Positions 8,593-42,957 of a stretch of 48,123 nt of DNA are shown here, piece by piece. The notes below the pieces were generated by a model that did no database searches, had not been told where the DNA came from, and worked only from the letters and a program-made list of their open reading frames with translations. Source of the DNA: an uncultured Rhodospirillaceae bacterium (lineage in GTDB: Bacteria > Pseudomonadota > Alphaproteobacteria > UBA8366 > GCA-2717185); contig CAJWOT010000003.1 of assembly GCA_913044215.1 (NCBI GenBank), positions 1 to 48,123 on the forward strand, read 5' to 3'. The position numbers and the translations under genes were made by a program. The stretch's first letter is position 1; the number at the start of each line of letters is the position of its first letter.

Positions 8593-8994
8593 TTAAAACA
8601 TATCCAATTCGACGCGCGCCGCTTCCGACATCATAGACGGATCCCACGGCGGGTCCCAAACGATCTCGACGGTCACCTCGCCGACGCCGGCCACCGCAGC
8701 TGCGGCTTCGGCAACCTGTCCCGGCAGGATTCCGGCTACCGGACAGGCCGGTGCGGTCAATGTCATGTCGATCGCGACATCACCCTTTTCGTCGATCTCG
8801 CACTTATATATGAGACCCAATTCGTAAATGTTAACAGGAATTTCGGGGTCGTAGACCGTTTTCACACCCTCGATCACGGCCTCGACCGCGGCAACTGGTA
8901 CCGACGGGTCGCGCGGTTCACCGGCCTTGGCGATACCGTCTTCCGGCATCGGGGTCGGCATGAAACCAGCAAAAGGGGCGTGTTCCATAGACAT
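8593..8994 (-). CDS. sufT: SufT-like Fe-S maturation protein, DUF59/MIP18 family (133 residues)
   Basis: The DUF59 core is clear: VYDPEIPVNIYELGLIYKC, then TLTAPACPVAGILPGQV with the conserved Cys, then VWDPPWDPSMMSEAARVELDMF. SufT-type proteins assist maturation of Fe-S proteins under high demand, and this form ends the SUF operon in many bacteria. I take the ATG at 8994 (MSMEHAPFAGFM), with GGCGGA upstream and a 14-base gap from sufU. The first 35 residues before the DUF59 core form a Pro-rich extension. The track ORF start at 9081 lies within sufU and is unlikely. Confidence 0.9.
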   Translation of the reverse strand: MSMEHAPFAGFMPTPMPEDGIAKAGEPRDPSVPVAAVEAVIEGVKTVYDPEIPVNIYELGLIYKCEIDEKGDVAIDMTLTAPACPVAGILPGQVAEAAAAVAGVGEVTVEIVWDPPWDPSMMSEAARVELDMF

Positions 8995-9008
8995 CTCGCA
9001 GTTCCGCC

Positions 9009-9476
9009 TCAGGCTTCCGTCGTCGCTTCGTCTTTGCCGTCGATCGCGGCGTTCAAGGTGTGCCAGGGCAGTGTCGCGCACTTGACCCGCACAGGGAAGG
9101 CGCGCACGCCGGACAGAACATTGAGCTTTTCCAGATCGTCTTCCAGCAGCGTCGAATCATCGCCGTTATCTTCGCCAGTGCACATCTCGTGGAACCGCTC
9201 GAACATCGCCTTGGCTTCGTCGACGGTGCGGCCCTTGACCAATTCGGTCATCATCGACGCAGACGCGACAGAAATCGCACAGCCCTTGCCAACGAAGGAG
9301 ACATCTTCGATCCGTTTGCCATCGTCGAGTTTCAGATAAACAACGAGCTGGTCGCCGCACAAAGGGTTGGCGCCATGCGCATGCGCGGTGGCGTCCTCGA
9401 CATCGCGAAAATTGCGCGGGCTCTTGCCGTGATCGAGGATCACTTCCTGATAAAGCTCGCGGAGATCATCCAACAT
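9009..9476 (-). CDS. sufU: SufU-type Fe-S scaffold/sulfur acceptor (155 residues)
   Basis: An IscU/NifU N-terminal fold starting LRELYQEVILDHGKSPRN. The Cys ligands are in GANPLCGDQL, GKGCAIS and VRVKCATLPWHTL. An insertion between the second and third Cys (about residues 85-110, including TGEDNGDDS) places it with SufU, a zinc-dependent sulfur acceptor for SufS, rather than with IscU. Its ATG overlaps the sufS stop by one base (TAATG), so the two are coupled. No SufE is seen, which fits SufU as the partner of SufS here. The Leu/Asp-rich C terminus is ordinary. Confidence 0.92.
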   Translation of the reverse strand: MLDDLRELYQEVILDHGKSPRNFRDVEDATAHAHGANPLCGDQLVVYLKLDDGKRIEDVSFVGKGCAISVASASMMTELVKGRTVDEAKAMFERFHEMCTGEDNGDDSTLLEDDLEKLNVLSGVRAFPVRVKCATLPWHTLNAAIDGKDEATTEA

Positions 9477-10735
9477 TAACCCAAGAACTCCTGTGTAAAC
9501 TCAAGCGCTTCGACCAGCGCGTCGGCGTCAGCCCGCGTGTTATACAGGCCGAAGGACGCGCGTGTCATGGCCGGCACGCCCATGCGGTCCATCAGGGGCT
9601 GCGCGCAATGATGCCCGGCGCGGCAGGCGACACCGGCGCGATCGATAATCGTGGCGATATCGTGCGGGTGAATATTCTCCATACTGAAGGAGATCACCGC
9701 CGCCTTGCTCGGCGCCGTACCAAAGATCTTGAGCCCCGGTATCGACGTCAGTTTCTGAGTCGCGTACCCCAGAACATCTTGTTCATGCGCCGCGATACGA
9801 TCCATCCCAATCGCGGAGACATAATCGATAGCGGCACCAAGCCCGATCGCCTGCGCGATCATGGGTGTACCTGCCTCGAACTTATTGGGCAATTCCGCCC
9901 AGGTACTCTCCGCCAGGGTGACTGTCGAGATCATCTCGCCGCCACCCAGATAGGGCGGCATGGCGTTAAGCAGCTCTTCCTTACCGTACAGAACGCCGAC
10001 ACCGGACGGTCCGTACAGCTTGTGGCCGGTAAAGACGTAGAAATCGCAGTCGATTGCCTGCACGTCGACAACGCTATGAACGGCGGCCTGGCTGCCATCG
10101 AACAATACCTTGGCGCCCGCGTCATGGGCGAGCCGAGCGATCTCCGCCACCGGCGTGATCGTACCGAGCACGTTCGAAGTATGCGTGATCGCAACGAGCT
10201 TCGTGCGCGGGGTCAAAAGCTTCTTGAAGTCTTCCAGCAGGAACTCGCCATCGTCGGTAACCGGCACGGCCTTCAGCACGAGCCCCTTTTCATCCCGCAG
10301 CATCTGCCAAGGCACGATATTGGCGTGATGCTCCATGACCGAGATGATTATTTCATCGCCGGGTTCCAGAAAGCGGCGACCATAGGTACCGGCGACCATG
10401 TTGACCGCTTCGGTGGCGTTGCGGGTGAAAATGACTTCATGGTCATGCGCGGCATTAATGAAACGCTGCACTTTGACGCGCGCGCCCTCATAGGCCTCCG
10501 TCGCTTTTTCCGACATGTAATGCACACCACGATGCACATTGGCGTATTCGTGCTCGTAGACATATCGCACCGCATCGATGACCTGTTGCGGTTTCTGTGC
10601 AGATGCCGCGTTGTCGAGAAAGATCAGCGGCTTATCGTAGATCTGTTCGCTCAGGATCGGAAAATCACTGCGGTAGCTAAGCACGTCATAAGCCGTGTCA
10701 TTCGCTGTCGGCATGGCTTGCGCAGTATCGCTCAT
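9476..10735 (-). CDS. sufS: SufS group II cysteine desulfurase (419 residues)
   Basis: A PLP enzyme that removes sulfur from cysteine as a persulfide for cluster assembly. The class-V aminotransferase fold is clear: IFLDNAASAQKPQQVIDA near the N terminus, the PLP Lys in FTGHKLYGPSGVGVLYG, and the catalytic Cys in CRAGHHCAQPLMDRMG, the short group II loop. About 20 extra residues precede the core. It follows sufD with a 6-base gap and AGGGG as ribosome site, and overlaps sufU. A separate group I desulfurase is encoded at 15896. Confidence 0.95.
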   Translation of the reverse strand: MSDTAQAMPTANDTAYDVLSYRSDFPILSEQIYDKPLIFLDNAASAQKPQQVIDAVRYVYEHEYANVHRGVHYMSEKATEAYEGARVKVQRFINAAHDHEVIFTRNATEAVNMVAGTYGRRFLEPGDEIIISVMEHHANIVPWQMLRDEKGLVLKAVPVTDDGEFLLEDFKKLLTPRTKLVAITHTSNVLGTITPVAEIARLAHDAGAKVLFDGSQAAVHSVVDVQAIDCDFYVFTGHKLYGPSGVGVLYGKEELLNAMPPYLGGGEMISTVTLAESTWAELPNKFEAGTPMIAQAIGLGAAIDYVSAIGMDRIAAHEQDVLGYATQKLTSIPGLKIFGTAPSKAAVISFSMENIHPHDIATIIDRAGVACRAGHHCAQPLMDRMGVPAMTRASFGLYNTRADADALVEALEFTQEFLG

Positions 10736-10741
10736 TACGTT

Positions 10742-12037
10742 TTACCCCTGCCTTTCACTTCGACTCTCAAGCCAGTCATCGACGACCGCCTGGAAGGCCG
10801 CACGCGGTGCTTCGGCCTGAATTTCATCCAACGCCTCGCCGACGAAAGCGGCGACCAGCATGCCGCGCGCCGTTTGCGGATCGATACCGCGTGCGCGCAA
10901 ATAAAACAGCGGCTCTTCCTCAAGCTCACCGGTCGTCGCGCCGTGACTGCATTGCACATCGTCGGCGTAAATCTCCAGCTCCGGCTTGGTGTCAATCTCG
11001 GTGCCCGGTGACAACAAGAGCGTTTTGTTGAGCTGATGCCCGTCGGTCTTCTGCGAATCCTGGCGTACCAAAATCTTGCCCTGGAACACGCCGCGCGCGT
11101 TTTCGTCAAGAACGCCTTTGTAAACCTCGCGCGAACTGCTGTTCGGTGCCGCGTGATCGATAAAGGTGGTGTTGTCGATATGCTGCTCGCCGCATGCCAG
11201 ATAGGCGCCATTCAAGCGGCACTCCACCCGTTCGCCCAATTCCGAACGAATCTCGTTGCGCGCCAAGTTGCCACCGACCTGAAGCACGAAATTGTCGTAG
11301 ACGGCCCGGTCAGCGATACGAACCAGATTCGCGGCCAAGTGATACGCCTCCGGTCCTTCGTTCTGCAGCTTGTAGTGGTTCAGCACCGCCCCGTCGCCGA
11401 CGGAAACTTCCGACACGCTGTTGCTGAAATACGCGCCCGAACCAACATGGCTTTCGACGATCGTCGCAACACTGCCGGCACCGGCGACGATCAAATGCCG
11501 GGGGTGAAACGACACGGGCTCTTCCCCAGCGGTACCGATCGAGACGAGATGCAGCGGCTTGTCTAGTGCGACTCCGTCATCCAGCTTCAAGTACAGCCCG
11601 TCCGACAACAGCCCGGTGTTTAGCGTCGCCATCGGCAAGTCAGTCACATCACTGAATTGCCCTTCCAGCGAGGTCCGATCCGCGCTGAGTTTCGCGGCCA
11701 AGCTGGTCGCTTCCACGCCTTCCGAGAGACCGTCCAGCGATGACAGCGACGGCGCAAAACGGCCGTTCACGAAGACCGCGACATAAGCGTCTTCCAGCGC
11801 GACGATCCCTTCCGGAACTGTCGTGACTTCAGTTGTCTGGTTCGCTTCAGCGGCGACAAATCCGGTGCGCGCCAGCCTGCGCAGATTGGTGTATTTCCAT
11901 GCCTCGGTACGCGGCGTCGGCAAACCGGACTTGCGGAACGCCTCTTGCGCGTCGGCACGCAATCGATCCAGCCAGCCGGTACCGGCACCCGGCAGGACCG
12001 CATCGAAATCTTCAAGGAAAGGAACAGGTTGCGCCAT
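10742..12037 (-). CDS. sufD: SufD, Fe-S assembly scaffold subunit (431 residues)
   Basis: SufD pairs with SufB and the SufC ATPase in the SufBCD scaffold. The beta-helix core is seen from about residue 120 to 390 (PLHLVSIGTAGEEP, LNGAYLACGEQHIDNTTFIDHA, SSREVYKGVLDENARGVFQGKI, and the late CSHGATTGEL motif holding a conserved Cys/His). The N-terminal helical domain begins MAQPVPFLEDFDAVLPGAG. Length is within the family range. It lies two bases after the sufC stop in the order B-C-D-S. Confidence 0.95.
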   Translation of the reverse strand: MAQPVPFLEDFDAVLPGAGTGWLDRLRADAQEAFRKSGLPTPRTEAWKYTNLRRLARTGFVAAEANQTTEVTTVPEGIVALEDAYVAVFVNGRFAPSLSSLDGLSEGVEATSLAAKLSADRTSLEGQFSDVTDLPMATLNTGLLSDGLYLKLDDGVALDKPLHLVSIGTAGEEPVSFHPRHLIVAGAGSVATIVESHVGSGAYFSNSVSEVSVGDGAVLNHYKLQNEGPEAYHLAANLVRIADRAVYDNFVLQVGGNLARNEIRSELGERVECRLNGAYLACGEQHIDNTTFIDHAAPNSSSREVYKGVLDENARGVFQGKILVRQDSQKTDGHQLNKTLLLSPGTEIDTKPELEIYADDVQCSHGATTGELEEEPLFYLRARGIDPQTARGMLVAAFVGEALDEIQAEAPRAAFQAVVDDWLESRSERQG

Positions 12038-12039
12038 CG

Positions 12040-12798
12040 CTATGCAGCCTCTGCCCCGACGAACGACGCGTAGCCCTTCTCTTCCAGCTCCAGCGCCAAG
12101 GTCTTGTCGCCAGATTGAATGATCTTGCCGCCTGCCAGGATATGAACATGGTCCGGCACGATATAGTCGAGCAGCCGCTGGTAGTGGGTGATCACCAGCA
12201 TGCCGCGCTCGGCCCCGCGCAGCGCGTTGACCCCGTCGGCGACGATCTTCAGCGCATCGATATCGAGGCCGGAATCCGTTTCATCGAGTACCGCGAATTT
12301 CGGCTCCAGCACCGCCATCTGCAGCACCTCGTTGCGCTTCTTCTCACCGCCGGAGAAGCCGACATTGAGCGCACGGCGCAACATGTCGTCATTGATGTTC
12401 AAGGCGCCGGCTTTCTCGCGCACGAATTTGAGGAACTGCATCGCGTCGAGCGCCCCTTCGCCACGATGTTCCCGCACCGCATTGACGGCCGTCTTCAGGA
12501 AGGTCGTGGTCGCGACACCCGGGATCTCGACGGGATATTGGAAAGCGAGAAACAGGCCGGACCGGGCGCGTTCATCCGCTTCCATCTCCAACAAATCTTC
12601 CCCGTCGAACAGAACCTGGCCTGACGTCACTTCATAGCCGTCCCGGCCGGCCAGGACGTAGGACAGCGTGCTTTTGCCCGAGCCGTTCGGCCCCATGATC
12701 GCATGCACTTCGCCGGCCTCGATCGTGAGATCGATACCCTTGAGGATTTCCTTGCCGTCGACAGTGGCATGCAGATCGCGAATTTCGATCAATGACAT
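12040..12798 (-). CDS. sufC: SufC, ABC-type ATPase of the SufBCD complex (252 residues)
   Basis: A cytosolic ABC ATPase that drives conformational change of the SufB-SufD scaffold. Walker A is GPNGSGKSTL near residue 36, the signature is NVGFSGGEKKRNEVLQMAV, and Walker B is FAVLDETDSGLDIDALK; the DETDSGLD form is characteristic of SufC rather than of transport ATPases. There is no membrane partner nearby. It begins 33 bases after sufB and ends two bases before sufD. Confidence 0.96.
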   Translation of the reverse strand: MSLIEIRDLHATVDGKEILKGIDLTIEAGEVHAIMGPNGSGKSTLSYVLAGRDGYEVTSGQVLFDGEDLLEMEADERARSGLFLAFQYPVEIPGVATTTFLKTAVNAVREHRGEGALDAMQFLKFVREKAGALNINDDMLRRALNVGFSGGEKKRNEVLQMAVLEPKFAVLDETDSGLDIDALKIVADGVNALRGAERGMLVITHYQRLLDYIVPDHVHILAGGKIIQSGDKTLALELEEKGYASFVGAEAA

Positions 12799-14291: not shown

Positions 14292-14756
14292 CTAAACCTG
14301 CCCTCGTACTTCTGCCGATGTTTCCGCATTTAACGGTGGCAGATCCTCGAATCCTGAATAGACCAGATCGGAAAGCGATACCGCTTCGAGTGCGCCGCGG
14401 ATCGCGTCATTGACCTTTTCCCAACCACCACGGATCGGGCACAGGCTTTCAACCTGACACTGCGCATCGGATGCTTCGACACAGGCCGTCAGCGCAACCG
14501 GCCCCTCCAACGCTTCGACGATGGCAGCGACGGAGATCTCGTCCGGCCCCCGCGATAAGCTATAGCCGCCATGGACGCCGCGGTGCGACACGACGAGATC
14601 GCTGCGCGCCAAGGATTTCAGGACCTTGCTGACCATCGGCGCCGGCAATCCGGTCGCTTCGGCGAGCTCGGGCGCGGTGGTCAAGCTGTCGCGGCGATTG
14701 GCCATCTGCGAGAGAACGACCACGCCGTAATCGATCATGCGGCTGAGTTTCAGCAC
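14292..14756 (-). CDS. Rrf2-family regulator of the SUF operon (154 residues), GTG start
   Basis: A winged-helix Rrf2 protein of the SUF-system regulator type. The N terminus [18 protein letters not shown], the recognition region [33 protein letters not shown] and three Cys ([10 protein letters not shown] and SLCPIRGGW) suitable for an Fe-S cluster are visible. Such proteins sense cluster status and repress suf genes when clusters are sufficient. The start is a GTG at 14756 with GGAG upstream. A strong dyad immediately before it (14764-14792) is a good autoregulatory operator candidate. It is the second Rrf2 gene in this locus; the other, at 17045, is IscR-like. Confidence 0.92.
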
Positions 14757-14763
14757 GTCGGCT

Positions 14764-14792
14764 CCAATCCGTACCTATTTGGTGCGGATTGG
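14764..14792 (-). promoter_or_regulatory. 29-bp dyad before the Rrf2/suf operon, candidate operator
   Basis: On the plus strand the halves are CCAATCCGTACC and GGTGCGGATTGG around a five-base spacer; 11 of 12 positions are complementary. It ends seven bases before the regulator's GTG and touches the ribosome site, and lies in a 119-base gap after tenA where an internal promoter would fit (a weak TTGAAA lies upstream on the minus strand). It could bind the Rrf2 protein as an operator, or fold in RNA and hide the ribosome site. Confidence 0.55.
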
Positions 14793-14875
14793 AAAATGTT
14801 TCATTTCATAGGCGATTTCAAGCCCGGGGCGGCGATTTTTTCCCGCAAAACCAAAATATTTCCGAAATTTTCGCG

Positions 14876-17044: not shown

Positions 17045-17512
17045 CTATCGCGCGTCCGCGCTATCAAACTGACTGCGATGAAGAATCCCGCTGGTCCCCA
17101 AGACGCGTCGCTCACAAACATCCGCGACGGTCACGGAACTGAGGAACAGGTGGATCTGATTGCTCAATTCCTCCCACAGGTCATGGGTCACACAACGACC
17201 GGAGGCACCGGTGCAGCCTTGCGGTGAACCCGGATCGCAGCGGGTCGCCCGGATCGGTTCGTCGACGGACAGGATGATGTCGGAAATACGTGTCTCCGAC
17301 GCGCTGCGCGCCAAAGTGTAGCCACCGCCGGGACCGCGGACGCTTTTCACCTGACCGCCGCGGCGCAGCTTCGCGAATAATTGCTCCAGATAAGACAGCG
17401 AAATTTCCTGCCGCGTCGCGATATCGGCGAGTGCGATCGGCTTGCCGTCGCTGTGCATGGCAAGATCGACCATGGCCATCACCGCATAGCGCCCCTTGGT
17501 ACTCAACCGCAC
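17045..17512 (-). CDS. iscR: IscR-like Rrf2 transcription regulator (155 residues), GTG start
   Basis: The N-terminal MRLSTKGRYAVMAMVDLA and the helix-turn-helix around QEISLSYLEQLFAKLRRGGQVKSVRGPGGGYTLAR match IscR closely. The cluster-ligand set Cys-Cys-Cys-His is present as RCDPGSPQGC and GRCVTHDLW. IscR carries a [2Fe-2S] cluster and controls Fe-S genes by cluster occupancy. The GTG at 17512 is preceded by GGAAGGAAG. It is followed by the desulfurase gene and preceded by cysE 57 bases upstream. The gene name is a family assignment; the regulator at 14292 shows that the locus has two sensors. Confidence 0.93.
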   Translation of the reverse strand: MRLSTKGRYAVMAMVDLAMHSDGKPIALADIATRQEISLSYLEQLFAKLRRGGQVKSVRGPGGGYTLARSASETRISDIILSVDEPIRATRCDPGSPQGCTGASGRCVTHDLWEELSNQIHLFLSSVTVADVCERRVLGTSGILHRSQFDSADAR

Positions 17513-40007: not shown

Positions 40008-40506
40008 ATCGTTGTGTTAACTACTAGATATATCTTACCGGCGCTTCGCCATTCAATCGAAATCCATATCACAGGCTTTTCATCAAATTGCATAGAAACC
40101 ATTTGTGGAATTGTTTCAAGCGCCCTATTTTAACTTCGCGCGATTGACTGCGCTCATGTTGAACGGTCGTTACGCACTGCTTCAGCGCTGTCGTTGGTCG
40201 TTTGAAGTCCCGGCCTGTTTCCTACTGGCTTCCATATGGTGCGAAACGGGCTTGCGTTTAAGAGCACTCGACTTCCGGCAATATTAAGCGTGGTCTTATT
40301 TTTGGTTTAGCGCGAAGTCTTTTCCGGAGTGGATCGTCTCCAGTCCGGAAATTGGTGGGCGCCGAGTTCCCGCCCTGTCCTGGTGTTATTGCTTTAATGC
40401 CGTTCGACAGGTCGTAGGTGGCGACGCCGGCTTCGCCGTAATGGCGGCACGATGCAGCGAATCCTGATCGCGCGTTTTGTCTCGCATCAGCCGCCGGAGA
40501 GTTAAC
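40008..40506 (+). promoter_or_regulatory. Divergent region and long rne leader
   Basis: About 500 bases without a convincing gene. The rne side has GGAGAG before the ATG at 40507. A stable hairpin lies at 40323-40351 (TTCCGGA and TCCGGAA, with GGA and TCC pairing inside), and a few weaker stems are nearby. RNase E messages in other bacteria are autoregulated by structured leaders that RNase E binds; the size and folding here fit that idea. Promoters for rne and the amidase operon must lie here, but I cannot pin them. Confidence 0.5.
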
Positions 40507-42957
40507 ATGTCAAAAAGAATGCTTATCGACGCCACCCATGCGGAAGAAACCAGGGTGGTGGTCGTCGACGGCAACCGGCTCGAAGATTTCGACTACGAGT
40601 CAGCCACAAAAAAACAACTCAAAGGCAATGTCTACCTGGCGAAAATCACCCGGGTAGAGCCCTCGCTGCAAGCCGCTTTCGTCGAATATGGCGGCAATCG
40701 GCACGGGTTCCTGTCGTTCAACGAAATTCATCCGGACTACTATCAGATCCCCGTCGCCGATCGGGAGAAGCTGGTCGCGGACGAGGCCGACAGCGAAGAC
40801 GATGAAGCCGGTGAAGAAGGCGACAGCGTCGAAGAGGTTGGCGGCGACGAAGTCGAAGAAGAGGTTGAGCGGCGACGCCGGCCGTCCTATCGCGGCTACA
40901 AGATCCAGGAAGTCATCAAGCGCCGGCAAATCGTGCTGGTGCAGATCGTCAAGGAAGAGCGCGGCAACAAAGGCGCGGCGCTGACGACCTATCTGTCGCT
41001 GGCGGGCCGGTACTGCGTCCTGATGCCGAACACCAACCGCGGCGGCGGAATCAGCCGGAAAATTTCCAACCCCAAGGACCGGAAACGGCTCAAGACGGTG
41101 CTCGACGGTCTGAACATCCCGGAAGGGATCGCGGTCATCGTGCGCACCGCCGGCGCCGAACGGTCAAAGGCGGAGATCAAGCGCGATTACGACTATCTCA
41201 TGAAACAATGGGATCAGATCCGCGAACTGACGCTCGCCTCCACGGCACCCGCCCTGATCAACGAGGAAGCCAATCTGATCAAACGGTCGATCCGGGACCT
41301 TTACTCGAAAAACATCGAACAGATCCTGGTCGAAGGCGATACGGGATACCGGCTGGCCAAGGATTTCATGAAAACGCTGATCCCGAGCCACGCGGTGCGG
41401 GTGAAACCCTACAAGGATGGCGGCATCCCGATTTTTCATCGCTATCAGGTGGAAAACCAGATCGACGCCATCCACAACCAGACGGTCCAGTTGAAGTCCG
41501 GCGGCTATATCGTCCTCGATTCGACGGAAGCCCTGGTTGCGATCGACGTGAATTCCGGCCGGTCGACCCGCGAACGGAATATCGAAGAGACAGCGCTGAA
41601 GACCAATGTCGAGGCGGCGGAGGAAATCGCCCGGCAACTGCGGCTGCGCGATCTCGCAGGCCTGATCGTCATCGACTTTATCGACATGGAACACTCGCGC
41701 AACATCCACGCGGTGGAGCGCAAGCTGAAGGAATCGCTTAAGGCAGACCGTGCCCGGATCCAGGTTGGGCGGATCAGTCATTTCGGCCTGTTGGAAATGT
41801 CTCGCCAGCGGCTTCGGCCGAGCCTGGCGGAAGTGTCCAGCAATGTTTGCCCGACCTGTGGCGGGGCCGGCCATGTCCGGTCGATCGAGTCGACCGCGCT
41901 GCATGTCCTGCGGGCGATCGAGGAAGAGGGCATTCGCAAACGCTCCGCGCAGATCACGGTGCACGTACCGACCGCGGTCGCCTTGTACGTCCTGAACCAA
42001 AAGCGGGTGACCCTTGCCGAGATCGAGTCGCGATACGATCTGACCGTTTCGATCGAAACCGACGACAGCCTCATTCCGCCCGAGTACCGGCTCGACCGGA
42101 CGCGGGGGACGGATCAGTCCGATGCGGAGGCGCCCGAGAGCAACGCCACGGCGGATGACGGCGAGCAGGCGGAAGGCGGCAGACGGAAACGCCGGTCGCG
42201 GCGGCGGCGCTCGAAACGGCGTGATGACGAAACGGTCGAAACGACCGAGACGACCGAGGAGCAAGTCGAAAAGTCCGAGTCGGATGCTGGCGAGGACGCC
42301 GCCGACACATCGGAAGCGGAAACCAGCGATACCGAGGGTGAGCCGAGGAAACGCCGGCGTCGGGGACGACGCGGCGGACGTCGCAGATCCCGGAAGCCGG
42401 AGAGCACGGAAGAAACCGTTACCGCAAGCGAAGACGCGGAAACCGACGGCGCGGTAGCGCTGGAAGCGGACACGTCAGCGGAAACGGCAACCGATGCCGA
42501 AACCGAACAAACCGCGGAAGATGGCGAAGCGCCGCAAACAGATGCGGAAGCGGAACCCGAGGAAAAGAAGAAACCGCGTCGCAGGCGGTCCAAGAAGGCG
42601 GAGACGTCCGGCGAGGAATCCAGCGAAGACGCCAAACCCAAACGCCGTCGCGCACCGCGCAGGAAAGCTAAAACGGACGATGCTGCGGAAGCGGATAGCG
42701 AAGCGCAGCCGGAGGCAGCCGCTGCTGATGAGGCACCTACAGCCGAAGAACCGGTTGCGAGCAACGATGCAGCGCCGGAACCGGAAGTGACCGAAGAGAC
42801 ATCGCCAGAACCGGTTGTGGCTGAAACGCCGGCAGCGGAGCCAACCGAACCGTCTCCGGAACCTGAGCCCGTGCCGATGGCCGCCAGCGCGCCGGAAACC
42901 GAGCCCGAGCCGGATAAACCGAAACGCGGCGGCTGGTGGCAGAAAATTATGCGCTAA
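40507..42957 (+). CDS. rne: Ribonuclease E/G (816 residues)
   Basis: RNase E cuts AU-rich single-stranded RNA and organises the RNA degradosome. The catalytic half begins MSKRMLIDATHAEETRVVVV with an S1 domain that is interrupted by an acidic insertion (DEADSEDDEAGEEGDSVEE...). LVAIDVNSGRSTRERNIEETAL and VIDFIDM carry the Mg-binding Asp residues, and the Zn-link Cys pair is in VCPTCGGAGHVR. Residues about 535 to the end are low-complexity: basic Arg/Lys blocks alternating with acidic Glu/Ala runs, ending GGWWQKIMR. The start at 40507 is supported by GGAGAG. It has its own long leader and is divergent from the amidase operon. Confidence 0.95.
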   Translation: MSKRMLIDATHAEETRVVVVDGNRLEDFDYESATKKQLKGNVYLAKITRVEPSLQAAFVEYGGNRHGFLSFNEIHPDYYQIPVADREKLVADEADSEDDEAGEEGDSVEEVGGDEVEEEVERRRRPSYRGYKIQEVIKRRQIVLVQIVKEERGNKGAALTTYLSLAGRYCVLMPNTNRGGGISRKISNPKDRKRLKTVLDGLNIPEGIAVIVRTAGAERSKAEIKRDYDYLMKQWDQIRELTLASTAPALINEEANLIKRSIRDLYSKNIEQILVEGDTGYRLAKDFMKTLIPSHAVRVKPYKDGGIPIFHRYQVENQIDAIHNQTVQLKSGGYIVLDSTEALVAIDVNSGRSTRERNIEETALKTNVEAAEEIARQLRLRDLAGLIVIDFIDMEHSRNIHAVERKLKESLKADRARIQVGRISHFGLLEMSRQRLRPSLAEVSSNVCPTCGGAGHVRSIESTALHVLRAIEEEGIRKRSAQITVHVPTAVALYVLNQKRVTLAEIESRYDLTVSIETDDSLIPPEYRLDRTRGTDQSDAEAPESNATADDGEQAEGGRRKRRSRRRRSKRRDDETVETTETTEEQVEKSESDAGEDAADTSEAETSDTEGEPRKRRRRGRRGGRRRSRKPESTEETVTASEDAETDGAVALEADTSAETATDAETEQTAEDGEAPQTDAEAEPEEKKKPRRRRSKKAETSGEESSEDAKPKRRRAPRRKAKTDDAAEADSEAQPEAAAADEAPTAEEPVASNDAAPEPEVTEETSPEPVVAETPAAEPTEPSPEPEPVPMAASAPETEPEPDKPKRGGWWQKIMR

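Follow-up and report, generated by a model that had tools for sequence, protein, structure and literature searches.

A near-perfect inverted repeat lies in front of the second Rrf2-type regulator gene of the window (the whole stretch of 48,123 nucleotides analyzed here, from an uncultured Rhodospirillaceae bacterium), and its position raises the question of whether it works as a DNA site for the adjoining regulator, as an RNA structure in the leader of the regulator gene, or not at all. The initial annotation, made from the sequence, had favored an autoregulatory operator of the suf operon, with a hairpin hiding the ribosome site as the alternative.

The suf locus and the geometry of the dyad

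The dyad is located within a 119-bp gap that separates the end of tenA (14876) from the GTG start codon, at 14756, of an Rrf2-family gene. This GTG (14754-14756) opens a 154-aa protein that scores 141.7 bits against NCBIfam TIGR02944 (SUF system Fe-S cluster assembly regulator; cut-off 110.65), and the gene is single-copy in the window's genome. It is indeed the second Rrf2 gene, coming after an IscR-like one at 17045-17512, and the block upstream of it consists of the iscR-like gene, a cysteine desulfurase gene, a ferredoxin gene and tenA. Downstream, the regulator's stop codon is followed after 2 nt by sufB, which scores 924.8 bits against a cut-off of 717. The genes of the likely operon are the following:

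14292..14756, minus strand: Rrf2-family SUF regulator (TIGR02944), the proposed binder, with Lys44 in the recognition helix and family-invariant D9 and C92/C100/C106
12832..14289, minus strand: sufB, first downstream target gene, by family score and position
12040..12798, minus strand: probable sufC of the same operon, by an ORF translation with ABC ATPase motifs and by gene order
10742..12037, minus strand: probable sufD, downstream gene, by ORF and order
9476..10735, minus strand: probable sufS cysteine desulfurase, downstream gene, by ORF and order
9009..9476, minus strand: probable sufU-like scaffold gene, downstream, by ORF and order
8593..9081, minus strand: probable sufT/DUF59-like gene, last of the likely operon, by ORF and order, its start codon uncertain

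As to the other Rrf2 genes, the IscR-like gene begins 57 nt past a cysE-like serine acetyltransferase gene, with which it may be cotranscribed, and it is without an operator of the suf-regulator type. A third paralogue (G000:C167:7007-7396), present in most relatives, shares 29% identity with the TIGR02944 protein and 36% with the IscR-like protein.

The two halves that had been annotated, CCAATCCGTACC (14764-14775) and GGTGCGGATTGG (14781-14792), are both present, complementary at 11 of 12 positions, separated by a spacer of five and ending, as annotated, 7 nt from the GTG. The dyad does occupy the 29 bp assigned to it, but the symmetry continues one pair outward, giving a 31-bp dyad whose 13-nt arms (14763-14775 and 14781-14793) are complementary at 12 of 13 positions around the 5-nt spacer, the extended arm lying 6 nt from the start codon. 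In full, the dyad reads TCCAATCCGCACC-AAATA-GGTACGGATTGGA on the coding (minus) strand. Within and around it, the following elements were distinguished:

14763..14793, minus strand: full 31-bp dyad, as extended in the window's genus, by its arms and an RNA fold of -17.5 to -18.8 kcal/mol
14766..14790, minus strand: candidate 25-bp palindromic operator AATCCGCACCAAATAGGTACGGATT (coding strand), with half-site AATCCGNAC and core AC-N7-GT, by conservation and as the sole full match in its own genome
14762..14765, minus strand: putative Shine-Dalgarno-like GGAG, 5 nt before the GTG, overlapping the outer edge of the dyad and not the 25-bp operator
14816..14821, minus strand: putative -35 element TTGAAA, inside a TTGAAAT block that is family-invariant between variable neighbors
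14795..14800, minus strand: weak putative -10 element AACATT, 15 nt from the -35 element, in a conserved AACA.TT block

As pure symmetry, the dyad is not exceptional. The window holds two dyads of comparable quality, and Markov-1 simulations gave a mean of 0.5 per window; since dyads of such quality are not rare, the case rests on conservation and not on symmetry. The other dyad with 13-nt arms (40321-40351) lies 5' of an RNase E-like gene (40477-42957, plus strand) and is possibly a leader hairpin.

Conservation of the palindrome in suf regulator leaders

Leaders were taken from orthologues in relatives and from 80 named genome contigs, and the set comprised Azospirillum, Sneathiella, Kiloniellales, Hwanghaeella and the window's own MAG family. 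A 25-bp palindrome was found in all 81 orthologous leaders of this wider lineage, the window included, with the form AATCAGGACTAATTTAGTCCTGTAT in Azospirillum and a form close to AATCCGNACYAAWTNGGTACGGATT in the window's family. Position-weight scores ranged from 16 to 38 bits throughout, against a shuffled 99th percentile of 3.4. As the matrix had been trained on these 81 leaders themselves, it was tested on other leaders. Among further alphaproteobacterial leaders from many families, 66 of 67 scored above 6 bits; the exception, L216, had a negative score and probably reflects a wrong guess of the start codon. For 40 of these 67 leaders, from held-out genomes fetched for this test, every upstream window exceeded 6 bits (40/40, median 26.2), while the controls taken from the same genomes gave 0/40 in two coding windows and 0/40 in the -300..-161 window. 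Moreover, TIGR02944 regulators, which head suf operons in Alphaproteobacteria, are also found elsewhere in the phylum, with 71 of 200 phylum-level genomes scoring over the family cut-off. A sample of 30 such loci, all outside the window's class by their handles, provided 27 usable leaders, and 26 of them were above the shuffled 99th percentile of 6.2; in the remaining one, L191, an operator match was not found.

The initial annotation had named, as the result that would speak against an operator, a dyad that is not conserved while its flanking bases are. The reverse was observed: within the window's family, mean pairwise identity is 0.90 and 1.00 in the two arms, 0.52 in the spacer and 0.36-0.41 in the distal upstream flank. 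The recurrence of the motif before orthologous regulator genes extends across the class, and in two large bacterial classes it precedes almost all copies of the regulator gene that were examined; what recurs is a palindrome with an AC-N7-GT core in the regulator's own leader, as in Rrf2 operators of the GAC-N7-GTC type.

These results also bear on two other readings of the dyad, namely that it belongs to an intrinsic terminator or that it arose between genes by chance, which can for practical purposes be dismissed. Roughly 0.5 dyads of equal quality are expected per window, so that chance could account for the dyad taken alone, but not for its strong conservation in more than 170 leaders, by which this reading is ruled out. 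A terminator is ruled out by the absence of a terminator-like T run.

Two further observations were made in the leader collection. Two tandem operator-like sites are present in L095, L101, L106, L112, L114 and L121 (Sneathiella and kin), and likewise in L161/L111 (Hwanghaeella), L098, L109 and L126-L132, which suggests cooperative binding. In addition, a suf regulator of alphaproteobacterial type is found together with the operator in L086 (CP051228.1), on a chromosome whose title reads Mesoflavibacter sp. Mesoflavibacter is a name from the Bacteroidota, and since L086 matches G039, from the window's order, the title looks wrong.

DNA site, RNA hairpin and the probable binding protein

We then considered at which level the palindrome could act. 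The TTGAAAT block, approximately 25 nt before the operator, is invariant in the window's family, and TTGA or TTGC occurs at a similar distance in many relatives; TAAATA or TACATC is found in relatives 16 nt from the -35 element. The putative -10 element would set the start of transcription at the 5' edge of the operator. As a generic promoter scan found no canonical sigma-70 promoter in the regulator leader, the overlap of operator and start site rests on the conserved TTGAAAT and the weak -10 element. The GGA of the Shine-Dalgarno-like element is kept across the window's family, with one GGG as the exception.

Some features would suit an RNA hairpin in the leader that masks the Shine-Dalgarno sequence and regulates translation of the Rrf2 gene: the leader of the window's genus forms a stable fold (about -18 kcal/mol, z about -7), the outer arm covers the GGA of GGAG, and a strong stem persists in some family members (L058, L060). 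The relatives argue otherwise. Most Sneathiella leaders have the motif intact with a dG of 0 to about -4 kcal/mol, and in L106, L114, L118 and L119 it is conserved without a stem (dG about 0). Within the family, the right arm is invariant and changes in the left arm are uncompensated, the fold of L057 falling to -7.5; an Rfam match was not found, and the transcript may even begin inside the 5' arm. Moreover, in the wider set, between 3 and 108 nt separate the operator from the start codon, and in relatives the motif is often 30-100 nt away. Because this distance varies and RNA pairing is frequently absent, the conserved feature is better explained as a DNA operator than as a hairpin hiding the ribosome site, and we conclude from these comparisons that selection most likely acts on the DNA sequence. 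The hairpin is thus very unlikely as an explanation of the dyad, and the alternative offered by the initial annotation did not hold as a conserved function: a cis-acting leader structure in that role is rejected on the grounds that pairing is not conserved across relatives and that an Rfam match was not found. An extra translational effect in the window's own lineage is possible. One might also imagine, in this lineage, a single palindrome with two roles, serving first as the DNA operator of the repressor and then, once repression is lifted, as a stem at the 5' end of the RNA. Such a stem would cover part of the Shine-Dalgarno sequence, so that less of the regulator would be made than of the suf enzymes encoded behind it, but we regard this as improbable.

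If the palindrome is a DNA operator, the window offers two candidate binders, the TIGR02944 protein and the IscR orthologue encoded at 17045-17512. The E. coli IscR type 1 operator has the consensus ATASYYGACTRWWWYAGTCRRSTAT (PMC6599224), and the site described here resembles it: both are 25-bp AT-flanked palindromes with a GAC-N7-GTC-like core, and both precede the Fe-S operon of the regulator itself. That the order-wide motif resembles this consensus, with approximately 19/25 matches in the Azospirillum form by hand count, and that the iscR gene lies just upstream, speak for IscR. However, the site of the window's own genus matches at only about 14/25 positions by the same count, its half-site being AATCCGNAC (AATCAGGAC in Azospirillum), and a model scan of the window found no such site in the iscR leader. 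Furthermore, the site is kept before the TIGR02944 gene in genomes lacking a close IscR orthologue, for example in the near-complete G005, G012, G015, G017, G023, G027 and G032, by which IscR as the binder is disfavored.

The proteins themselves point in the same direction. The contact residues of E. coli IscR are S40, Y41, E43 and Q44 (PMC11475020); the upstream Rrf2 protein keeps all four, and the TIGR02944 protein has P40, M41, S43 and K44 instead. E. coli IscR and the TIGR02944 protein share the Rrf2 fold and three Cys, but the latter is below the cut-offs of the IscR families TIGR02010 (61.7 vs 207.55 bits) and PRK10857 (40 vs 275 bits), and the His107 ligand of IscR has no conserved His counterpart at 107-109 in 173 TIGR02944 proteins, although a His at another position may serve as a ligand; together, these two features indicate that it is not an IscR. 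Residue 44 aligns with the base-contacting Gln44 of IscR and falls inside the predicted recognition helix (39-51); 161 of the 173 proteins have Lys there and 12 have Gln, with two changes on the FastTree topology. At half-site position 9, the core C of AC-N7-GT, distinct half-sites carry C in 91% of cases with Lys44 and in 31% with Gln44; this association (Fisher p = 6e-7, a value that ignores kinship) rests on two evolutionary events. As half-site base 5 likewise differs strongly between the two groups, part of this signal may be shared ancestry. A strict rule coupling Lys44 to Gln with a change of the core from AC to AG, suggested by L126-L132, is broken by L203, a Gln44 protein that retains the C core, and the claim is therefore reduced to a loss of constraint at the core C. 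Altogether, since the site is kept without IscR and the core C is usually lost with Gln44, the TIGR02944 protein is the likely binder, and IscR is a most improbable one.

Proposed feedback circuit, known systems and target range

Based on the family footprint and on the class-wide recurrence, the operator proposed by the initial annotation gains considerable support: the dyad is very probably the operator of the adjoining TIGR02944 Rrf2 protein, through which it would autoregulate the suf operon. A TIGR02944 homodimer would place one recognition helix on each half-site (AATCCGNAC) of the 25-bp palindrome, and this palindrome would overlap the region in which transcription starts from a dedicated promoter between tenA and rrf2, so that the bound protein could block RNA polymerase. 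In its cluster-loaded form, the protein would repress the rrf2-sufBCDS-sufU-sufT operon; when cluster supply fails, as in iron limitation or in the presence of oxidants, the apo-protein would release the DNA and the operon would be induced. The outcome would be a local negative feedback with essentially one target in the window's genome. Repression by the holo-form is suggested by analogy with RisR (PMC9973013) and by the operator's place beside the conserved TTGAAAT; the regulator may instead activate the suf operon.

Regarding the cluster, the fold model matches Rrf2 structures (CymR, RsrR, IscR, NsrR) and nothing else well, its cluster loop (91-108) being of low confidence. C92, C100, C106 and D9 are invariant in 173/173 TIGR02944 proteins. 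In S. coelicolor NsrR, Asp8 is the non-Cys ligand of the [4Fe-4S] cluster (PMC5411485), and D9 falls on it by the offset of the profile match (query 2-135 to chain 1-134). Like NsrR, the TIGR02944 protein has three Cys, along with an Asp close to its N-terminus at an apparently matching position, and a Cys3Asp [4Fe-4S] cluster, unlike that of IscR, is a reasonable guess. NsrR differs in sensing NO, and in its operators and genes.

Other Rrf2 systems can be compared by their published descriptions. In M. xanthus, holo-RisR yields a footprint over a GAC-N7-GTC core and acts as a repressor of both suf and isc (PMC9973013). Its site is similar in the core, in AT-rich flanks and in overlapping promoter elements, and RisR is likewise a three-Cys Rrf2 protein, there a suf repressor, without the contact residues of E. 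coli IscR; unlike the TIGR02944 protein, it also controls isc, and it is assigned to a subgroup called IS6. In Zymomonas mobilis, suf is the sole assembly operon, with the Rrf2 gene ZMO0422 as its first gene and expression that rises with O2 (PMC6372839); by this description, an Rrf2-family gene heads sufBCDS there as well. RNA-seq profiles of a ZMO0422 deletion (GSE304360 and GSE304389) are public, their samples being labeled rsuR (PMC13064070), and none of the literature found describes an operator for it. Rrf2 regulators of alphaproteobacterial isc-suf operons are also known as IscR in Caulobacter (PMC11475020) and in Rhodobacter, with its Iron-Rhodo-box (PMC4618611); unlike the TIGR02944 system, these have large regulons, other motifs and another cysteine pattern (a single Cys in Rhodobacter). 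The literature search, to which subscription journals and RegPrecise were external, returned only IscR, RisR, RirA and Zymomonas, and no description of a TIGR02944 operator. Nothing observed falls outside the known Rrf2 scheme; the novelty lies in the operator, in how widely it occurs and in a candidate specificity contact. The operator, the contact between Lys44 and the C:G pair of the core, and the single-target feedback circuit are testable predictions, for which Azospirillum or Zymomonas would be tractable organisms.

The initial annotation had also suggested a search for the motif near other Fe-S or iron genes. With the half-site pattern and three mismatches allowed, the dyad is the sole match within the window; across the 4.75-Mb genome (93% complete, 525 contigs), the match without mismatches is unique, and the next best has two. 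A sequence-only profile of the family sites gave E = 3e-8 for the operator and 1.05 for the next best, among the best 150 of 2121 candidates that were scored, in agreement with the pattern scan. Neither scan yielded a second convincing site in the window's genome, so that a wider iron or Fe-S regulon was not found there. As this is the only good site, a single-target feedback loop is suggested, unlike the approximately 40 targets of IscR. Seven family relatives gave the same single-site picture. Weak secondary hits in relatives fell mostly inside or near unrelated genes. In Pacificispira (G027, matching Pacificispira spongiicola), there are only two such hits (L158 1501-1524 and L162 1501-1524), both weaker and located 56 nt and about 246 nt upstream of RpoH-like sigma factor genes.
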